32,441 nt of DNA from contig JAPHTF010000125.1 in the NCBI GenBank assembly GCA_026197095.1, positions 1 to 32,441 of the forward strand, written 5' to 3'. Shown piece by piece: positions 19,866-32,441 of this stretch (its first letter is position 1; every line of letters begins with the position of its first letter). The notes under the pieces are model-generated. The model was not told the DNA's origin and did not search any database. It saw nothing but the letters and a program-made list of their open reading frames with translations. Origin of the DNA: Gammaproteobacteria bacterium (GTDB taxonomy: Bacteria > Pseudomonadota > Gammaproteobacteria > UBA6429 > Thiohalophilaceae). A program made the translations under genes and the position numbers.

Positions 19866-21815
19866 TTAGGCGACTTGTGCATTATTCCCATTCGTAATGA
19901 AATCATCGAGAGGTCGATTTAAGGTATCAGACAGCATGTTTAAATCGGCAAGTTGAATATTGAGTGCTTCAGCAGCTGTTTCCAGTTCAGTAATGCGTGT
20001 TTGCAATGTATCGCGAGACTCATTAATTTTACGCAAGCTTTCTAAGCGTTTCTCCATTTGGTTCCGGTGTTCTTTAATTCGCGCAACCAATGGCGCCATA
20101 CCGGCTTTGCCCCATGCTTCAACTTCCTGATGTGCCTGGAAGAAAGTATTACGCGCGTGGCTTACCATTGAAATAAAGAATTTTTTAACAACAAAGGCTT
20201 GCTCGGTTGCCGCCATTTTTGCACTGCTACGATAAGCTTCGGCTTCATTGCTTAAGCGTTCTAAATCACGCCTGTATTTACCCATGCTAAATAATTTAGG
20301 TTTAACATCCGTTAAGCCATGCTCTTGGTTAAATGTGCGGTAAATAGTTTGTAGCAACATATTTACCTTATCAGCTTGTTGCGAGGCAGAAGTGATAGAC
20401 GTGGAAATAATTTTGAAGAAATCTTCCATGCCGCCTTTTAAACCTTTAGTGGTCCAGGTGCCGGTCATGTCTTTACGTGTTTTCGCCATCAAGGCATCAA
20501 GTTCTGTCAAACTTAAAGTTTGCATAAGGTGTTGATGCTGTTCTGTGAATGATTTTTTGTTAGTTTGAAAACTTTCTACACTTTTGTGATAAACAGTTTG
20601 CTCTTCACGTGTTTTCTTCATCAAGTGACCAATAACATCTTCATTCTTGCCACTTAAACCAGCGAGTTCTTTTAACTGTTTATTCGTGTCATTGAGTCGA
20701 GATGAAATTAAATTGCGTGATTCTTCAGCCATACCGCCAATTTCAGCAACTATACTATTACGAACAATTTGTTGTTTTTGCGGCAAAATATCCTGCGCAA
20801 GAATAGATTCTAAAGATAGAATATTGCTTTTAGCCAATAAGTCTGTGTCGTGACGGATCTTTGCAAGTAAACCTTTCTGTGCTGAAACAGGGAATACGTT
20901 TTCTATTCCAACTCCCAGCATTTTAGCTGCAGAGTTACATTGAGTTGTAACACTTGAATTAATGGCATCAGTGCTCTTAAGGTCATCCCATAAGGTATCA
21001 ACTTTGTTGAGGACAATAATGCGCCCATGTTTAGCATCACCGCCCAATGGCTGAACATTCTGATGCCACATATCTAAATCAGATTTGGTGACACCGGTAT
21101 CAGCGGCTAACACAAAAACAACGGCCTGTGCATTAGGTAACATGTTAATGGTTAATTCAGGTTCATTTCCGAGTGCATTTAACCCTGGAGTATCAAGAAT
21201 AGTTAAACCTTCTTTTAATAACGGGTGTGGAAAACTGATTAAAGCATGACGCCACATAGGAATATCAACCATGTTTTCAGATTCGTCATTTCGGTAGTCA
21301 GAAAGCCCCAGTTTTTCTGCTACAGGCAGAGGCACACGTTTCGTTTTCACCACTTCACGAAAGGCCTCCGCCATTTTTTCTGATGAGCTGGTATCAAGAT
21401 CAATTGATGTCCAGTTAATCGGGTTGTGCTTGTGTTCCTGAATACTGGTATCGTCTAAACGGGTTTCAATCGGTAGCAGGCGGATATAACTTTGGTTTGC
21501 TTCAGAATCAAAGAAGAGTTCTGTCGGACACATTGTGGTACGACCTGCTTCTGAAGGAAGTAGCCGTCTATCGTATTCAGAAAAGAAAATGGCATTAATG
21601 AGTTCAGTTTTGCCGCGAGCAAACTCAGCAACAAAAGCAATGGTCAGATGATCAGATTTAAGGGTTTCAATAAGCTCAAAAATACGAATTTCGACTTCTG
21701 CCGAACTCATATTATTGCCATCAAGCCACTTCTGATATTTTTGAATGGCTTCAGTAATATCTGAGCGCCAGCGGCCATAAGCTTGCATTTGATCTGTAAA
21801 ACGGTCAGTTGCCAT
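19866..21815 (-). CDS. Bacterial dynamin-like GTPase
   Basis: This large 649-residue GTPase has a dynamin-type G domain at about 50-330: P-loop AEFARGKT (Lys69, Thr70), a switch region with LLPSEAGRTTMCPTEL, G3 DTPG (208-211) and G4 NKVD (270-273). A long helical part follows (about 340-649) with heptad-like stretches, probably the stalk and membrane-interacting region. The first glycine of the canonical GxxxxGK[ST] loop is replaced by Ala; AEFxRGK is, from memory, normal in this proteobacterial group. Bacterial dynamins remodel or protect membranes, and some act in phage defence or chromosome-linked roles; the role here is unknown. AGGA stands 5 bases before the ATG. Confidence 0.9.
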   Translation of the reverse strand: MATDRFTDQMQAYGRWRSDITEAIQKYQKWLDGNNMSSAEVEIRIFELIETLKSDHLTIAFVAEFARGKTELINAIFFSEYDRRLLPSEAGRTTMCPTELFFDSEANQSYIRLLPIETRLDDTSIQEHKHNPINWTSIDLDTSSSEKMAEAFREVVKTKRVPLPVAEKLGLSDYRNDESENMVDIPMWRHALISFPHPLLKEGLTILDTPGLNALGNEPELTINMLPNAQAVVFVLAADTGVTKSDLDMWHQNVQPLGGDAKHGRIIVLNKVDTLWDDLKSTDAINSSVTTQCNSAAKMLGVGIENVFPVSAQKGLLAKIRHDTDLLAKSNILSLESILAQDILPQKQQIVRNSIVAEIGGMAEESRNLISSRLNDTNKQLKELAGLSGKNEDVIGHLMKKTREEQTVYHKSVESFQTNKKSFTEQHQHLMQTLSLTELDALMAKTRKDMTGTWTTKGLKGGMEDFFKIISTSITSASQQADKVNMLLQTIYRTFNQEHGLTDVKPKLFSMGKYRRDLERLSNEAEAYRSSAKMAATEQAFVVKKFFISMVSHARNTFFQAHQEVEAWGKAGMAPLVARIKEHRNQMEKRLESLRKINESRDTLQTRITELETAAEALNIQLADLNMLSDTLNRPLDDFITNGNNAQVA

Positions 21816-27141: not shown

Positions 27142-28307
27142 CTAAAACGAATAGGTGACACGTGCAGTTTGACGTGAAAAATCATTTGCCGATCCTGCAT
27201 CATCAACTGTGGTATGAATTAATTCTAGATTCAGTGAGTCACTTACACTGTAGCCAAGGATGAGATTTGTTTCGTCAATCCTGGTTGATTGGTCATTATT
27301 TTCAAAATGTCCTGCTGCTACTGCTGCAGTAAAACTATCTGATGCCGCATATTCAACTGATAAGACGTATGCTTCAGCATCATTAAGACCACTGATAGTC
27401 GACTCATCCATTGCTGCATAATAGTTGCCACCACCCAGTCCAAGATCTGCTGATTTCCCATCATCATTACTTCCTGAGTTCATAACAGCAGAAAGCGTAA
27501 ATGGACCTATTGAGTAAGTGATTGAGGCACCAACAACACTACCATCGGTGCCAGAAGAATTATCTTCGGAGTAACTACCAAACTGTGCAGCAAGCTCCAG
27601 CTTACCCATGCTGTAGGACATATCTGCATAGAGTAATGAGTAATTTTGGTCAAAGTGGTAGTACCAGCCTTGTGTAGAAAGGTTTTCACTATGCTTATAA
27701 TTTAAACCTAAAGCAGAGACACCTTCATCACTGGCTTTTGAAAATAAATCCTTTTCGCTGTCAAAACCCGCCCATGTATTGACGTGACCTGCCTCTAACG
27801 TCAATGATTTACTCAGGTTTACATTTAACCATCCGGCGCTAAATGTATTTGAAAACATACGAATGTCATCAGTATTAATAAAAGGGTTATCGAGTTTTTG
27901 ACGGCCTAAACGTATAAAACCGTTGTTAAATTCATAGTGCACATAAGCTTCTGCAAGATAGGCAAAAGATGTTCCCCTGCGACTAAGAAAGTCAGTATTA
28001 AGTTTGCCCGTTGTTGTATCGCCACTTAAAATATCAATATTTTCAGAAAAATAAGGCGCAAATGCGAGTTGAAAGTTATTCCATTTGGCGGTTTCAAACT
28101 TAAGTTCACCACCAATAGCGGCGCCCGTTGTAGTCTGGCTTCCTGCTGCATCGGGTGAGAGAGATATATAGCCAATGAGAGAGATATATAGCCAAAACGT
28201 AACTGGCCTGAAGTTGAAGCATTTTTGAAAGCTTCATCAATACTTGCGGCTTGTGTGGTATTTGAGAGTCCGGCAATTAGCAGAGAAGCGGTTAATAATT
28301 TATTCAT
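27142..28307 (-). pseudogene. OprD/MOMP-type outer-membrane porin, split by a 20-bp tandem duplication
   Basis: The 5' part (from 28307) encodes a signal peptide (MNKLLTASLLIAGLSNTTQA) and the first porin strand up to QLRFGYISLS. An exact 20-base duplication then shifts the frame, and the protein ends after 93 residues at 28026. The other frame is open from just after the duplication to 27142. Removing one copy leaves 1146 bases, one 381-residue frame, with LSPDAAGSQ, LAEAYVHYEF and LGRQKLDNPFINTDDIRMFSNTFSAG, then alternating beta strands ending in the terminal aromatic VTYSF. These features point to an OprD/MOMP-like 16-18 strand porin. AGGGA lies before the ATG. It may be a recent pseudogene, a switchable gene or a sequence error. 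Confidence 0.88.
28156..28195. repeat. Exact 20-bp tandem duplication inside the porin gene
   Basis: Unit 1 is 28156-28175 and unit 2 is 28176-28195; all 20 bases are identical and directly adjacent. Each unit contains the purine run GAGAGAGATATATA. As 20 is not a multiple of three, the duplication shifts the porin frame. Slippage between the copies would restore it. Confidence 0.95.
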
Positions 28308-28937: not shown

Positions 28938-29007
28938 GTATATGAACGATATAACAATAAACATTAAATTAATTTAGTTAACATTTCTTATGTAAAAGGA
29001 GGCAAAT

Positions 29008-29811
29008 ATGGCCAGTGCTCTTGGTCAATTACCTAACGCCCCACTCATCTATGTGCTTGCCCAAATAGTATTTACGCGTATACCAAAAATGGAATCACGA
29101 TGGGAGGACTTTCACCAAGAAATATTTGATCTTTATCCACAAGCTGAGCCAGAGCGAATACGCCAAGTACAAATTCAAGATGAGGGGGTTTCCTCAGCAT
29201 CAGACCTAATCAGATGGAATATGTTTGATAGAGATAGACGAACAGGCATCATTCTATCTCCTGAGAGTCTTGTTTTTCATGCAACATCGTATACAACGTC
29301 TGATGATTTTTTTAATAATTTGGATTACATCATAAACAAATTAGTAGATATCTTACCTAAAAATATTGAAGTAAATAGGCTTGGACTTCGTTATGTAGAC
29401 TTATTATTGCCCAGCAAGGAGATACCAGTCGACAATCAGGTTTCGGGTAAATTAGGTAGTATTTCTCTAGAAGAAGTAGGATGTAATTTTCAAAAGCTTG
29501 AAGAAGTAACTAGGTATAAGACGCCTCTAAATGGTGATTTGGTTATACGTCATAGGCAAAGTATAGAAGCAGATATTTTGCCAGGTGATATTTTCCCTAA
29601 CAATTTACTACCTGCTCCTCTATTAGCTAACGTGAAACCAGAAGAAGCTGTGGTTGGACTGATAGATTATGATCATTATATTAAAGTAAAAGAGGATTTT
29701 GAGCCTATTTCAATTATCAAAAAATTTAAAGAGTTGCACCATATAAGTTCAAAAGCTTTTGAATTAACCACTACTGATGAAGCTAAACAATTATGGAGAG
29801 GTACAACATAA
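29008..29811 (+). CDS. TIGR04255 family protein
   Basis: This 267-residue member of the sporadically distributed TIGR04255 family has unknown function. Matching features are the N-terminal LPNAPLIYVLAQIVFTRIP (8-26), the central NRLGLRYVDLL (123-133) and the C-terminal FELTTTDEAKQLWRG, whose usual form is F..T.....WG. It has no signal peptide or membrane helix and is likely cytosolic. A near-ideal AGGAGG lies 5 bases before the ATG, the strongest ribosome-binding site in this region. It is the first gene of a three-gene cassette, and its TAA overlaps the next ATG by one base. Family members recur in variable genomic regions, in line with the restriction gene close by. Confidence 0.8.
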   Translation: MASALGQLPNAPLIYVLAQIVFTRIPKMESRWEDFHQEIFDLYPQAEPERIRQVQIQDEGVSSASDLIRWNMFDRDRRTGIILSPESLVFHATSYTTSDDFFNNLDYIINKLVDILPKNIEVNRLGLRYVDLLLPSKEIPVDNQVSGKLGSISLEEVGCNFQKLEEVTRYKTPLNGDLVIRHRQSIEADILPGDIFPNNLLPAPLLANVKPEEAVVGLIDYDHYIKVKEDFEPISIIKKFKELHHISSKAFELTTTDEAKQLWRGTT

Positions 29812-30530
29812 TGCCAAATTCGAATTGGATTCTTTCTGATGAACCAAAGTTCACACCATGGCCAGGTGGCTTTACACCTGCCGATCTAATTGATGCTAAT
29901 GCAAGCGGTTCATCTAGCCTAGGACAATTAGCTGACTTACTTAGTACAGGTACAGCGGCAGAATGGCCTGTTGCAAGCAAACAAGCAACTACAATTCCTC
30001 TAATATTAAAGCATGCAGAAATAAGTGCAGGCTGGAGTTCTGTAGTTATTCATCTAGATGATAAAACTGAAGATGATGCGTATGTAAGAACTACCGGTGA
30101 AAAAATTGAGTATATGAGAGATGTTTTTGGTATCAGCATCTCTCATTTAGCTAGAATATTAAGAACATCCCGTCCTACTATATATTCGTGGATAGGAGAT
30201 GAAGAGCCAAGAAAACAGTCTATTGAACGGATACAACAAATTTATGATATAGCTGCACAGTGGGCAAATATGAATCCATATCATTTTTCTCCCGGCCCAC
30301 TTCTTAAACAGACAATCGGGAAGTCACCGTCTCTACTTGATCGTTTAGAACAAGATGAATTAGACATGGAGGAAATAGAAACTGGCCTTACCACTATTCT
30401 TGAGCTGATGCATCGAAAGCGTATAAGGATGGATCGTTCAAAAGAGCGTACTCAAGAATCTAAAATAAGCGATCTTGATAAAGAAAAAAATCGACACGGA
30501 CTAACACAAATAGTTAGTTCTGCTGAATGA
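29811..30530 (+). CDS. Helix-turn-helix protein of the TIGR04255 cassette
   Basis: This 239-residue protein has a poorly conserved-looking N-terminal half (FTPWPGGFTPADLIDANA, then a Ser/Ala-rich linker). A helix-turn-helix follows at about 98-130: TGEKIEYMRDVFGISISHLA and RILRTSRPTIYSW, similar to Xre/sigma-region-4 folds. After it comes a helix (SIERIQQIYDIAAQW) and a charged, Arg/Lys/Glu-rich C-terminus. It probably binds DNA, perhaps as the cassette's autoregulator or antitoxin-like partner. The ATG at 29811 overlaps the previous stop by one base and has GGAGAGG upstream; an ATG at 29793 lies before that site and is rejected. Confidence 0.75.
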   Translation: MPNSNWILSDEPKFTPWPGGFTPADLIDANASGSSSLGQLADLLSTGTAAEWPVASKQATTIPLILKHAEISAGWSSVVIHLDDKTEDDAYVRTTGEKIEYMRDVFGISISHLARILRTSRPTIYSWIGDEEPRKQSIERIQQIYDIAAQWANMNPYHFSPGPLLKQTIGKSPSLLDRLEQDELDMEEIETGLTTILELMHRKRIRMDRSKERTQESKISDLDKEKNRHGLTQIVSSAE

Positions 30531-30537
30531 GTGAAAA

Positions 30538-31356
30538 ATGAACACGGAAGTACGTAGAAAATTAATAGATAATGGTTGGCGCCAAGGTGCGCTGATATGC
30601 AACCTCAAAGATGATGACTTTAATACTTACGCACATTTCGAACTTGAAGAAAACGATATTTATGTTGTTATATCGCAAACATGTGACCTAATAAATCCAG
30701 ACTTCGATGCTGAACCATTCTTTGAAGTACTACGAATTACAAAAATAAATTCCCTACCTAAAAACGAATATATGGGAGGTAAAAATTCTAGAGAAATACA
30801 TTTCCAAACCGTTCTCGGAGGCGAAACAAGTACATTTCGAGGATTACCATATGAACGTTTCTTTATAGATAGACAGGTACTTAACTCTCATAGTCCAGTT
30901 GATTATCTTACAGATGCAACAAGAGAGATGATATCGGCATGGCTAATAAAAAGATTTTCAAGGGCTGCATTTCCTGATAGTTATGATCAACGCTGGAAGT
31001 CTAGATTAAAGCAAATAGAGCGTACGATAAAGCGGCTGAAATTTATTGAAGATATTTATATTAAGATCACACCCTTTGAAGAAGTAAGTGATGAAATTGA
31101 ATATCAAGTCGAAATATATTTACTCATGGATGCGGACGACTATGATAATCCGACAATTTACGAAGAATATTGTACTCACAAACAATCGCTTGAGGATCAA
31201 TTTAATCAATGTGATGGTATAGATATTCAGACGATTGATCTTGTATCAAATGCTGATATTACATTGAGGGAAATCCAAGAACTAAAACGATGGGATTATA
31301 GCTACCTAAGTTATCGTGAACCAGATGAACATGTTAAACCTGCTATAGAAAACTAA
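30538..31356 (+). CDS. Unknown cassette protein with SQTCDL motif
   Basis: This 272-residue protein belongs to no family I can name. The N-terminal part has IYVVISQTCDLINPDFDAEPFFEVL (SQTCDL at 46-51, EPFFEV at 59-64), a Cys-Asp-Leu and acidic arrangement seen in uncharacterised phage- and defence-associated proteins (recollection only). A basic helical middle follows (WLIKRFSRAAFPD, then WKSRLKQIERTIKRLKFIEDIY). The C-terminal half is acidic, with EEVSDEIEYQVEIYLLMDADDYD. The Cys and surrounding acids could be catalytic or metal-binding; this is a guess. It begins 7 bases after the HTH gene without a clear Shine-Dalgarno, so translation is probably coupled, and it converges on hsdR. Confidence 0.7.
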   Translation: MNTEVRRKLIDNGWRQGALICNLKDDDFNTYAHFELEENDIYVVISQTCDLINPDFDAEPFFEVLRITKINSLPKNEYMGGKNSREIHFQTVLGGETSTFRGLPYERFFIDRQVLNSHSPVDYLTDATREMISAWLIKRFSRAAFPDSYDQRWKSRLKQIERTIKRLKFIEDIYIKITPFEEVSDEIEYQVEIYLLMDADDYDNPTIYEEYCTHKQSLEDQFNQCDGIDIQTIDLVSNADITLREIQELKRWDYSYLSYREPDEHVKPAIEN

Positions 31357-31392: not shown

Positions 31393-32441
31393 TTAAAAAA
31401 CCCCATATGTGCTTATGCCATCACCTTGATAATTTGTATATATATGTTGGTAAACTAAGATGCTTTTCTCATCTAATTCTTCATTTGGGTATGGCTTTTC
31501 AGGAAGGTATTGGAGGCCGTCATTAATTATTGTTTTTACTTGGGATGTTACCTGGGTACTTTCACGCCAACGGTCGATTTTCAACTTTTCCTTCTTAAGT
31601 GCTTCTAGTGTTTTTATGGCTACCTTCTTAACTTTTTCTTCTTCTTTGGGCGTAAGATTTGATTTCTTTAATAAATCAAATATTGCAAGTGTTTCTTCGT
31701 CCAAACCTTCATTTATAGCACGGTCAATTTCAGGAGTTATTTCGTTCTCCATAAAGTCATTAAGATCATCAAATGCCTGTTGAACTGCTTGAATATCTTT
31801 CCCTGCATTGTATTCTTCAATTATCTTTTTATATTTCTCATAAAACTCTAGCCGAAGTGGGTTTTGCTGTACCATTTGTTCTAGTTTCTTTTGAATGGCT
31901 TCTTGAAGATCAAAAACGACAGCATTTTTATTATTTGACTTGGCGAAAGCAGCTCGCAGCTTATCAAAATCAAGATTGCTTAAATCAACATAGTCATCTT
32001 CACGTACTTCATTCTTTAATGTACTCACGCTCATGCTAACTTCTTGTTGAAGTTTTCGCATCACATCAGAAATATCAGCCGATTTTGTTTTTTGGTTAAG
32101 CTGATCATAGATTGCTTCAATTGAATTAAATTCACGAGTAAATTGCTTAACTTCTTCTTCAGGATATAGAGCCATATATTTCCGAAATACATCGCGAGCT
32201 GCTACTTCAAATTGTGTGCGTATGGTTTCATTTAAACAAACAGCATTAGTAGCTTCCTTAAGATGGCCAAGCTTAATCATTGCAGTTTCTGAATTGATTA
32301 ATGAATCTAAATCAAACTGTACTTCTTGTAAAAATTCACGAACAGCGAGAATAGAGGCTGTCAGTTCAGTAGTCATTTCTATAAGTTTTTCAACCGGGTT
32401 ATGTGTATCTTCCCCATCCCCGGACTTTCCTTTAGGCTTTC
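31393..32441 (-). CDS. hsdR: Type I restriction endonuclease subunit HsdR, C-terminal part (runs off the window)
   Basis: HsdR is the ATP-driven translocating and cutting subunit of type I restriction systems. The visible 349 or so residues are the C-terminal helical domain (DUF3387/EcoEI_R_C type): NPLRLEFYEKYKKIIEEYNAGKD, INEGLDEETLAIFDLLKK, LTPKEEEKVKKVAIKTLEALK, IDRWRESTQV and QHIYTNY. The first Met in the frame (32376) is not the start: the frame stays open to the window edge without a stop (KPKGKSGDGEDTHNPVEKLIE precedes it). The nuclease and helicase motors, and hsdM and hsdS, must lie beyond 32441. It is convergent with the cassette, only 36 bases apart. Confidence 0.92.
   Translation of the reverse strand, partial: KPKGKSGDGEDTHNPVEKLIEMTTELTASILAVREFLQEVQFDLDSLINSETAMIKLGHLKEATNAVCLNETIRTQFEVAARDVFRKYMALYPEEEVKQFTREFNSIEAIYDQLNQKTKSADISDVMRKLQQEVSMSVSTLKNEVREDDYVDLSNLDFDKLRAAFAKSNNKNAVVFDLQEAIQKKLEQMVQQNPLRLEFYEKYKKIIEEYNAGKDIQAVQQAFDDLNDFMENEITPEIDRAINEGLDEETLAIFDLLKKSNLTPKEEEKVKKVAIKTLEALKKEKLKIDRWRESTQVTSQVKTIINDGLQYLPEKPYPNEELDEKSILVYQHIYTNYQGDGISTYGVF

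Follow-up and report, generated by a model that had tools for sequence, protein, structure and literature searches.

The three genes studied here lie at positions 29,008 to 31,356 of a 32,441-nucleotide stretch of gammaproteobacterial DNA (family Thiohalophilaceae, assembly GCA_026197095.1, contig JAPHTF010000125.1), which is called the window below. They encode a protein of the TIGR04255 family (gene 1), a helix-turn-helix (HTH) protein (gene 2) and a protein with a predicted MazF/CcdB-type toxin fold (gene 3). We consider, with moderate confidence, that this cassette is a mobile tripartite toxin-antitoxin-like module, most likely an abortive-infection system directed against phages or acting between mobile genetic elements. 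The features of the locus are as follows.

28996..29002, plus strand: AAGGAGG ribosome-binding site, 5 bases ahead of the gene 1 ATG, read from the sequence
29008..29811, plus strand: gene 1, TIGR04255 family, 267 amino acids (aa), ATG start (NCBIfam, AlphaFold2, PDB comparison)
29811..30530, plus strand: gene 2, HTH protein, 239 aa (HTH matches; kept between genes 1 and 3)
29943..29957, plus strand: STGTA in gene 2, residues 45-49, a form of the motif [G/S]TG[S/G/T/A/N] (motif compared with shuffling)
30129..30197, plus strand: helix-turn-helix, gene 2 residues 107-129 (Pfam HTH_28, sub-threshold)
30538..31356, plus strand: gene 3, predicted MazF/CcdB fold with C-terminal extension, 272 aa (AlphaFold2, PDB matches)
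30553..30969, plus strand: predicted MazF/CcdB-like barrel domain of gene 3, residues 6-144 (span of the structure-match rows)
30577..30588, plus strand: WRQG, gene 3 residues 14-17, in at least 90% of 72 aligned sequences
30673..30690, plus strand: SQTCDL, gene 3 residues 46-51 (alignment)
30976..31308, plus strand: predicted C-terminal extension of gene 3 (residues 147-257), modelled as alpha/beta and barely covered by structure matches
31393..32439, minus strand: 3' part of hsdR, a neighbour outside the cassette (tblastn), cut by the contig end

All three genes are intact and coupled on the plus strand, as read from the sequence. Gene 2 starts at the ATG of a TAATG at 29811 and overlaps gene 1 by 1 base, a second in-frame start being open upstream at 29793, and 7 bases separate gene 2 from gene 3. 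An earlier note on the window had described three coupled same-strand genes with this overlap, this gap and a strong ribosome-binding site, and its coordinates and the ribosome-binding site were found as claimed. A promoter scan upstream of the cassette gave 20 sites, compared with 13.9 (sd 4.2) in shuffled sequence, which is not convincing.

The earlier note had also taken the three genes for one functional unit, and had proposed as a check to look for homologues that rarely occur together. This was not the case. A total of 151 gene 3 loci was counted after same-contig duplicates had been dropped (the second rows of L109 and L130, and L110, L112 and L128, which lie on the contigs of L024, L025 and L041), near-identical copies from other records being kept (for example L116 and L180). 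All three genes stood in order in 144 of the 151 loci, and the complete ordered cassette was present in 139 of the 141 loci whose contig extends 1.9 kb or more upstream; the two that lack it despite this room are a fragment (L204) and locus L042, considered below. The gap between gene 2 and gene 3 had a median of 10 bases (5-95% range -4 to 18), and the coupled HTH gene directly upstream of gene 3 reproduces, as far as organisation goes, the layout of a type II toxin-antitoxin operon. The hosts range from cyanobacteria to Deinococcota, and prophages, plasmids and chromosomes all carry the cassette. With gene 3 as query, tblastn matched seven plasmids and two phage-collection records that belong to one Acinetobacter entry (23-28% identity); the plasmids come from cyanobacteria, Meiothermus, and alpha-, beta- and gammaproteobacteria. 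The order TIGR04255, small middle gene, gene 3 was observed in all seven plasmids and in the one phage-collection record read, the first gene of which is labelled 'Uncharacterised' but joins the gene 1 alignment. In conclusion, the existence of a single three-gene unit is strongly supported. One decayed cassette was also seen (L031, on G027:C54), with stop codons in TIGR04255 and in gene 3; it yields no gene 3 open reading frame (ORF) and stands outside the 151.

The frequency of the cassette was estimated in a class sample of 369 genomes and a phylum sample of 398, both of which contain the window's genome. By profile search gene 3 was present in at least 12 of the 369 class genomes; such genome counts are lower bounds, divergent copies being missed, and L231, which carries all three genes, was not found by the class-sample gene 3 search. 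TIGR04255 was present in 35 of the 369 and adjoined gene 3 on the same contig in 12 of the 12 genomes with gene 3; the hypergeometric probability of this overlap is 7.5e-14, and the arrangement is therefore not due to chance. In the phylum sample gene 3 was present in at least 8 and TIGR04255 in 30 of the 398 genomes, and the two were adjacent in 6 of the 8 genomes with gene 3. Genome G441 has them at the ends of separate contigs, which are perhaps the halves of one cassette, and in G414, the genome of L042, TIGR04255 was not found. One of 8 genomes of the window's genus has TIGR04255. The distribution of the cassette is sporadic. A profile made from the window's gene 3 and its two closest relatives (A4) matched nothing in the viral contigs, and the window's gene 3 alone matched nothing in the genome contigs; the window's own subgroup is therefore rare in those collections.

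Gene 3 had been assigned by the earlier note to no family that it recognised. This stood, in that no Pfam, NCBIfam or PADLOC family was matched beyond chance level, and the protein matched PHROG 34320, of no assigned function, at 1.1e-13; structure prediction sharpened the claim. In the AlphaFold2 model, built from 72 aligned sequences (pLDDT 87.6, pTM 0.73), a toxin-like barrel was recognised: all 50 listed PDB matches are MazF/CcdB/Kid-type toxins by title (Z 8.9-11.1), the best covering 102 residues at 2.7 A and the rows spanning residues 6-144. Foldseek matched the model to MazF with a probability of 1.00, a TM-score to the target of up to 0.69 and a best E of 1.6e-3; its list also has EscJ/PrgK and zinc-transporter domains, for which the matched range is absent from the listing. 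Gene 3 is thus predicted from its model to be a MazF/CcdB-fold protein, not a MazF. Where the earlier note had suggested a check for membership in a known unrelated enzyme family, this predicted toxin fold turned up instead.

Sequence comparison points in the same direction from a greater distance. Gene 3 gave no match to PF02452 (PemK_toxin) at E up to 1, nor was PF02452 found when the 72 aligned sequences were searched at E up to 0.01. A bridge of two profile comparisons could be built: the gene 3 family matched the short third genes of other TIGR04255 loci (see below) with a probability of 84-91% (P 7.4e-6 to 1.3e-6), and these short third genes matched MazF in register (P 0.0023); the short proteins had been picked by eye for a QGD...CD pattern, a choice that favours a match. 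The remaining profile comparisons gave P 0.095-0.72. The profile ties of gene 3 to MazF are weak and indirect. In the best profile alignments a VVIS segment is in register with MazF, and, as in MazF/PemK/CcdB systems, the proposed antitoxin gene comes first in the cassette. Gene 3 differs from these toxins in its length of 272 aa with a C-terminal extension, in the lack of a PF02452 match and in a set of conserved residues of its own (WRQG, CD, E, R, W); the cassette differs in that a third gene is nearly always present. Across the 72 sequences C49, D50, W135, L136, R142 and W252 are invariant, and W14-G17, E59, E63 and R85 are almost invariant. A wider set of 26 keeps C49 invariant and varies at D50.

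A barrel of this kind might bind without being toxic. We take the CcdB family to belong with the MazF/PemK toxin superfamily; CcdB has the same barrel fold and is not known to be an RNase. The conserved residues of gene 3, moreover, do not look like the MazF set, and MazF's catalysis may therefore not apply. On this basis genes 1 to 3 could form an accessory module that contains no toxin and regulates or modifies host or phage functions, which would mean lysogenic conversion or superinfection exclusion. We consider this unlikely, and the partners of TIGR04255 elsewhere, described below, fit an effector better.

The HTH that the earlier note had placed in the middle of gene 2 was recovered there: Pfam HTH models matched residues ~107-129 below threshold (best 19.7 bits, cut-off 25), and PHROG 8, 'transcriptional regulator', was matched at 6.9e-8. 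A short motif, [G/S]TG[S/G/T/A/N], recurs in the N-terminal part of gene 2 proteins from window-type cassettes, a region that otherwise varies. After thinning of proteins at least 60% alike, 72 non-redundant window-type gene 2 proteins were left: 50 carried the motif, compared with 2.2 expected from shuffling, and 57 carried the looser [GST]TG (8.0 expected). The strict motif was not enriched in gene 1 (1/58) or gene 3 (0/74). Hydrophobic stretches were slightly in excess in window-type gene 2 proteins and not in other types. The idea that the GTG motif is a chaperone tag shared by gene 2 proteins was dropped as a rule across types, the motif being enriched in the window type and not in the others.

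Gene 1 belongs to TIGR04255, as the earlier note had proposed, with 132.3 bits (cut-off 30) over positions 1-252 of the 252-position NCBIfam model. The family name itself refers to an unexplained sporadic distribution, and the term 'TIGR04255' was not found in the literature searched, a search that left most subscription journals outside. The AlphaFold2 model is confident (pLDDT 88.3, pTM 0.87), and the two aligners disagree on its fold. In a second-look comparison rows 1-14 were arginine, creatine, taurocyamine and McsB kinases (Z 8.8-7.2 over 176-193 residues), whereas Foldseek placed TATA-binding protein and AdoMet decarboxylase first. SecB was not among the listed rows of either comparison, which does not exclude it, and PF00217, sought in 40 relatives, matched nowhere, controls included.

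These kinase matches suggest a different role for gene 1. TIGR04255 could be an enzyme of guanidino-kinase or glutamine-synthetase type, with gene 2 or a host target as the substrate that it modifies and gene 3 acting downstream; this is compatible with gene 3 being a toxin. Residues that could serve such an enzyme do exist, Q19, R124, G126, R128, P192, D220, D222 and W263 being invariant in 64 aligned sequences. However, identity to the kinases is 5-10%, a Z near 8 is about the level reached by models without a clear match, and Foldseek ranks other folds first. We therefore regard the enzyme proposal as doubtful.

TIGR04255 is more frequent than gene 3, and its other occurrences were read at 57 further places, 31 in the class sample and 26 in the phylum sample. 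At these places gene 2 mostly overlaps or abuts gene 1, and what follows varies. Partner groups were first chosen by eye and then checked by leave-one-out profile search (E up to 0.01); papain-like, HEPN-like and HA-type are labels given by inspection only. The search recovered 11/11 short MazF-like third genes, 24/24 HA-type third genes with 27/27 of the matching second genes, 4/4 papain-like and 3/3 HEPN-like genes. PIN third genes scored above the Pfam cut-off in two loci (35.8 and 37.3 bits, cut-off 23.6). By eye, the third gene of L242 is PIN-like and that of L248 a truncated short MazF-like gene; that of L231 is a window-type gene 3. A partner could be assigned at 50 of the 57 places, and at 49 of these it is unlike the window's type. 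Seven places have no assigned partner (L241, L252, L292, L294, L296, L302 and L307): L252 has an HNH match just below cut-off (20.7 against 21.4), L302 runs out with its contig, and neither L292 nor L296 showed a second gene coupled to the first, so that some TIGR04255 genes may be solitary. Large genes that by eye are of DNA-methylase type follow TIGR04255 in L246 (5284-7800, reverse complement) and L294 (4794-7799).

The commonest partner in both samples is the HA-type pair, formed by two uncharacterised families (L235-L238, L243, L250, L253-L257, L260, L290, L297-L300, L304, L309-L313 and L315). Its gene 2 often carries NWDSYGA/WDGYGA, and its third gene, of ~150 aa, often has a conserved HA (His-Ala) pair. 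The papain-like third genes (L230, L232, L259 and L291) encode 216-233 aa with a GLTCATF-like motif, papain/NlpC-like by eye.

Some of these partners resemble candidates for phage defence in PADLOC. In the four HA-type loci scanned, the C-terminal part of PDC-M32A matched all four second genes (6.7e-8, 2.3e-5, 2.4e-9 and 0.015), and PDC-M32B matched two of the four third genes (9.4e-5 and 0.022); PDC-M05B matched one of two HEPN-like genes at 1e-4. No PADLOC model matched the scanned partners of the short MazF-like, PIN-type and papain-like loci, or any of five TIGR04255 proteins of other types. One genome with a window-type cassette also carries a full-length PDC-M32A homologue, and the gene after it looks PDC-M32B-type (L320, on G199:C74). 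We rejected the idea that PDC-M32A is a TIGR04255 fusion, given that the N-terminal domain in L320 looks unrelated by eye and that the TIGR04255 proteins had no PADLOC match. The HA-type genes thus share their back end with PDC-M32 and differ from it in the front domain, and the window's own genes 2 and 3 did not match PDC-M32. Since the shared part of PDC-M32A is joined to another N-terminal domain, one kind of back end is common to several fronts; conversely, since several kinds of partner stand behind TIGR04255, TIGR04255 is common to several back ends. Both the PIN third genes and the partners that match phage-defence candidates fit an effector in third position better than a cassette devoid of toxin.

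A broader reading of these partners is that TIGR04255 is the hallmark of combinatorial immune modules that form a large and so far unrecognised class, in which a recurring front protein, either a sensor or an antitoxin-chaperone, is combined with exchangeable gene 2/gene 3 pairs. We advance it tentatively, holding it slightly less probable than its contrary. If true, one infection-sensing principle would drive at least five unrelated effectors, namely the long and short MazF folds, PIN nucleases, HEPN-like and papain-like proteins and the new HA-type family, and some of the back ends would be joined to a different front in candidate PDC-M32.

The position of the cassette in phages bears on its function. 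Pattern scans covered 80 genome loci (the best 80 of 130 relatives) and 48 viral contigs, the latter including some near-duplicates. A P2-type portal gene, convergent with gene 3, was present in 28 of the 48 viral loci and 3 of the 80 genome loci; this gene, Q, follows 0.86-1.26 kb past the gene 3 start on the opposite strand. In Escherichia coli a match was found in 19 of 5426 genomes, covering 80% or more of the query in one of these, and the five loci read have replication gene A, a DinI-like gene, the cassette and then portal gene Q, which is incomplete in one of the five. The position between gpA and gpQ is established for these relatives, not for the window copy. According to Rousset et al. 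(PMC9122126), the gpA-gpQ interval of P2-like prophages is a hotspot of anti-phage systems, occupied by old and tin in P2, and old-tin and 3 of 8 further systems cloned from it conferred phage resistance; the same work states that the hotspot also houses partitioning and virulence genes, which would suit a cassette without toxin as well. Relatives of the cassette hold the same position as old and tin, and their proteins differ from those of the P2 locus, going by annotation.

Could the cassette be a system already described at this hotspot? We take Rst_3HP to be the name of the three-gene hotspot system of Rousset and colleagues. That system (Rst_3HP or 3HP; Rousset et al., 2022), protective against phage P1, shares with the relatives of our cassette the arrangement of three genes in the P2 gpA-gpQ hotspot. 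Its genes are described as having 'no clear predicted domain' (PMC9122126), a second source describes Rst_3HP as mostly prophage-borne (PMC9090908), and a study that used PADLOC-DB v2.0.0 lists 3HP with Rousset et al. as its source (PMC10855318). However, the cassettes of the window, of two E. coli strains and of Robbsia matched only the PADLOC models RmrA and mad1, and these through the HTH. By this comparison the cassette is probably not the published 3HP, and we regard their identity as very unlikely.

The genes next to the cassette were also compared with controls. PADLOC models were run on 100 nearest neighbours (from 125, at 74 loci) and on 100 control genes (from 284, in 20 stretches, drawn from other genomes), three P2-type loci and genes above 900 aa being left out of the test. 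At E up to 1e-10 the neighbours matched 95 models and the control genes 6, figures that are not gene counts because one methyltransferase matches many models. Among the neighbour matches listed were type I, type II/cytosine and orphan methyltransferases, a type IV restriction enzyme, a Thoeris-type TIR protein and PDC-M50B; those of the control included mad3 (5 members), mad8 (3), PD-Lambda-3_B, Csa3 and AriA. Pfam, run on the neighbours and not on the control, gave 4 integrases, 2 HipA and many housekeeping families. Another refuting condition of the earlier note, that the homologues lie for the most part in conserved housekeeping surroundings, was tested in part. An enrichment of defence genes beside the cassette is thus suggestive and is not a statistic. 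The earlier note had argued for a defence or conflict role from the adjacent hsdR. This argument turned out weak, restriction or methyltransferase genes being found only here and there among nearest neighbours, and the role itself received indirect support by another route, through the hotspot relatives, the sporadic mobile spread and the predicted toxin fold. In one further case, L249 (5662-7899), a short MazF-like TIGR04255 module is followed by a same-strand gene that resembles hsdM by eye, which makes it a second such module beside a type I restriction locus.

In most type II toxin-antitoxin operons the antitoxin gene lies just upstream of the toxin gene. We favour a toxin-antitoxin-like abortive-infection module because of the antitoxin-first order, the HTH of gene 2, the predicted toxin fold of gene 3, the nucleases that replace it elsewhere, the mobility and the hotspot position. 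In such a module gene 3, with its MazF/PemK/CcdB-fold domain, would be the effector toxin, and gene 2 would be an HTH antitoxin that probably represses its own operon. Gene 1 would control gene 2, either as a sensor or as a chaperone that holds the antitoxin in its active state until an infection interferes. Toxicity, its neutralisation, autoregulation, the sensor role and defence itself we infer from the arrangement and the models.

The role proposed for gene 1 is modelled on CmdC of CmdTAC. Systems of the SecB type form a class of toxin-antitoxin-chaperone (TAC) modules. Like CmdTAC, the cassette is a three-gene module found in a phage-defence context, in which the third partner could guard the antitoxin. 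It differs in several respects: gene 1 is a TIGR04255 protein with no chaperone among its listed structure matches, the order is TIGR04255, HTH, effector, and the effector is predicted to have a MazF fold and not to be an ADP-ribosyltransferase. In CmdTAC a capsid protein triggers chaperone release and antitoxin loss, and the toxin is freed (PMC11618068).

A simpler function would be plain addiction: a toxin-antitoxin pair with an accessory gene, not triggered by phage, that maintains plasmids or prophages. The seven plasmids, the many viral contigs and the toxin-antitoxin-like organisation agree with it. Yet gene 1 is kept in 139 of 141 loci, although a two-gene system would suffice for maintenance, and many relatives occupy the hotspot where several tested cassettes gave phage resistance (PMC9122126). 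We therefore regard plain addiction as improbable.

Several observations weigh against the abortive-infection module. First, locus L042 has gene 2 and gene 3 and no recognisable gene 1 despite room for it, and the window's cassette lies in no recognised prophage or plasmid. Second, the window proteins matched no toxin-antitoxin or defence model beyond weak HTH or chance-level matches, a gene 3 profile compared directly with 17 PemK sequences fell short of significance (P 0.14-0.22), and the conserved residues of gene 3 depart from the MazF signature. Third, neither of the top fold matches of gene 1 is a chaperone. Finally, the gene 2 motif does not extend to other cassette types: among 50 other-type gene 2 proteins (L242, L252, L296 and L301 being outside this set), [GST]TG was present in 7, compared with 3.3 expected, and the strict motif in 1, compared with 0.8 expected, neither being an enrichment.

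The census suggests a reason for the sporadic spread of TIGR04255: the gene recurs in mobile modules of several genes, and many of these modules sit at an established antiviral hotspot and encode effectors that resemble toxins. If the proposed function is correct, these modules would represent a tripartite and combinatorial type that is new to toxin-antitoxin and abortive-infection biology.

In the window, the cassette sits between a split porin gene and hsdR. Gene 3 converges, at a distance of 36 bases, on a reverse-strand ORF that ends at 31393, which the earlier note had called hsdR; tblastn confirmed this, with matches in 17 plasmid records (best identity 52% among the matches listed), and the 8 listed matches all carry the annotation 'type I restriction endonuclease subunit R'. 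This identity was missed by the Pfam and PDB searches. The contig stops at base 32441, so that hsdR is cut off there. On the other side, an OprD/Porin-type gene is broken over two frames (27142-28307, minus strand): 27142-27942 corresponds to the later part of porin models, and 28026-28307, in another frame, resembles a porin start, the split being due either to a frameshift or to an assembly error. Bacterial dynamin-like proteins are sometimes tied to phage defence, and the window also encodes a 649-aa dynamin-family GTPase (19866-21815, minus strand; Dynamin_N, 55.1 bits in Pfam).

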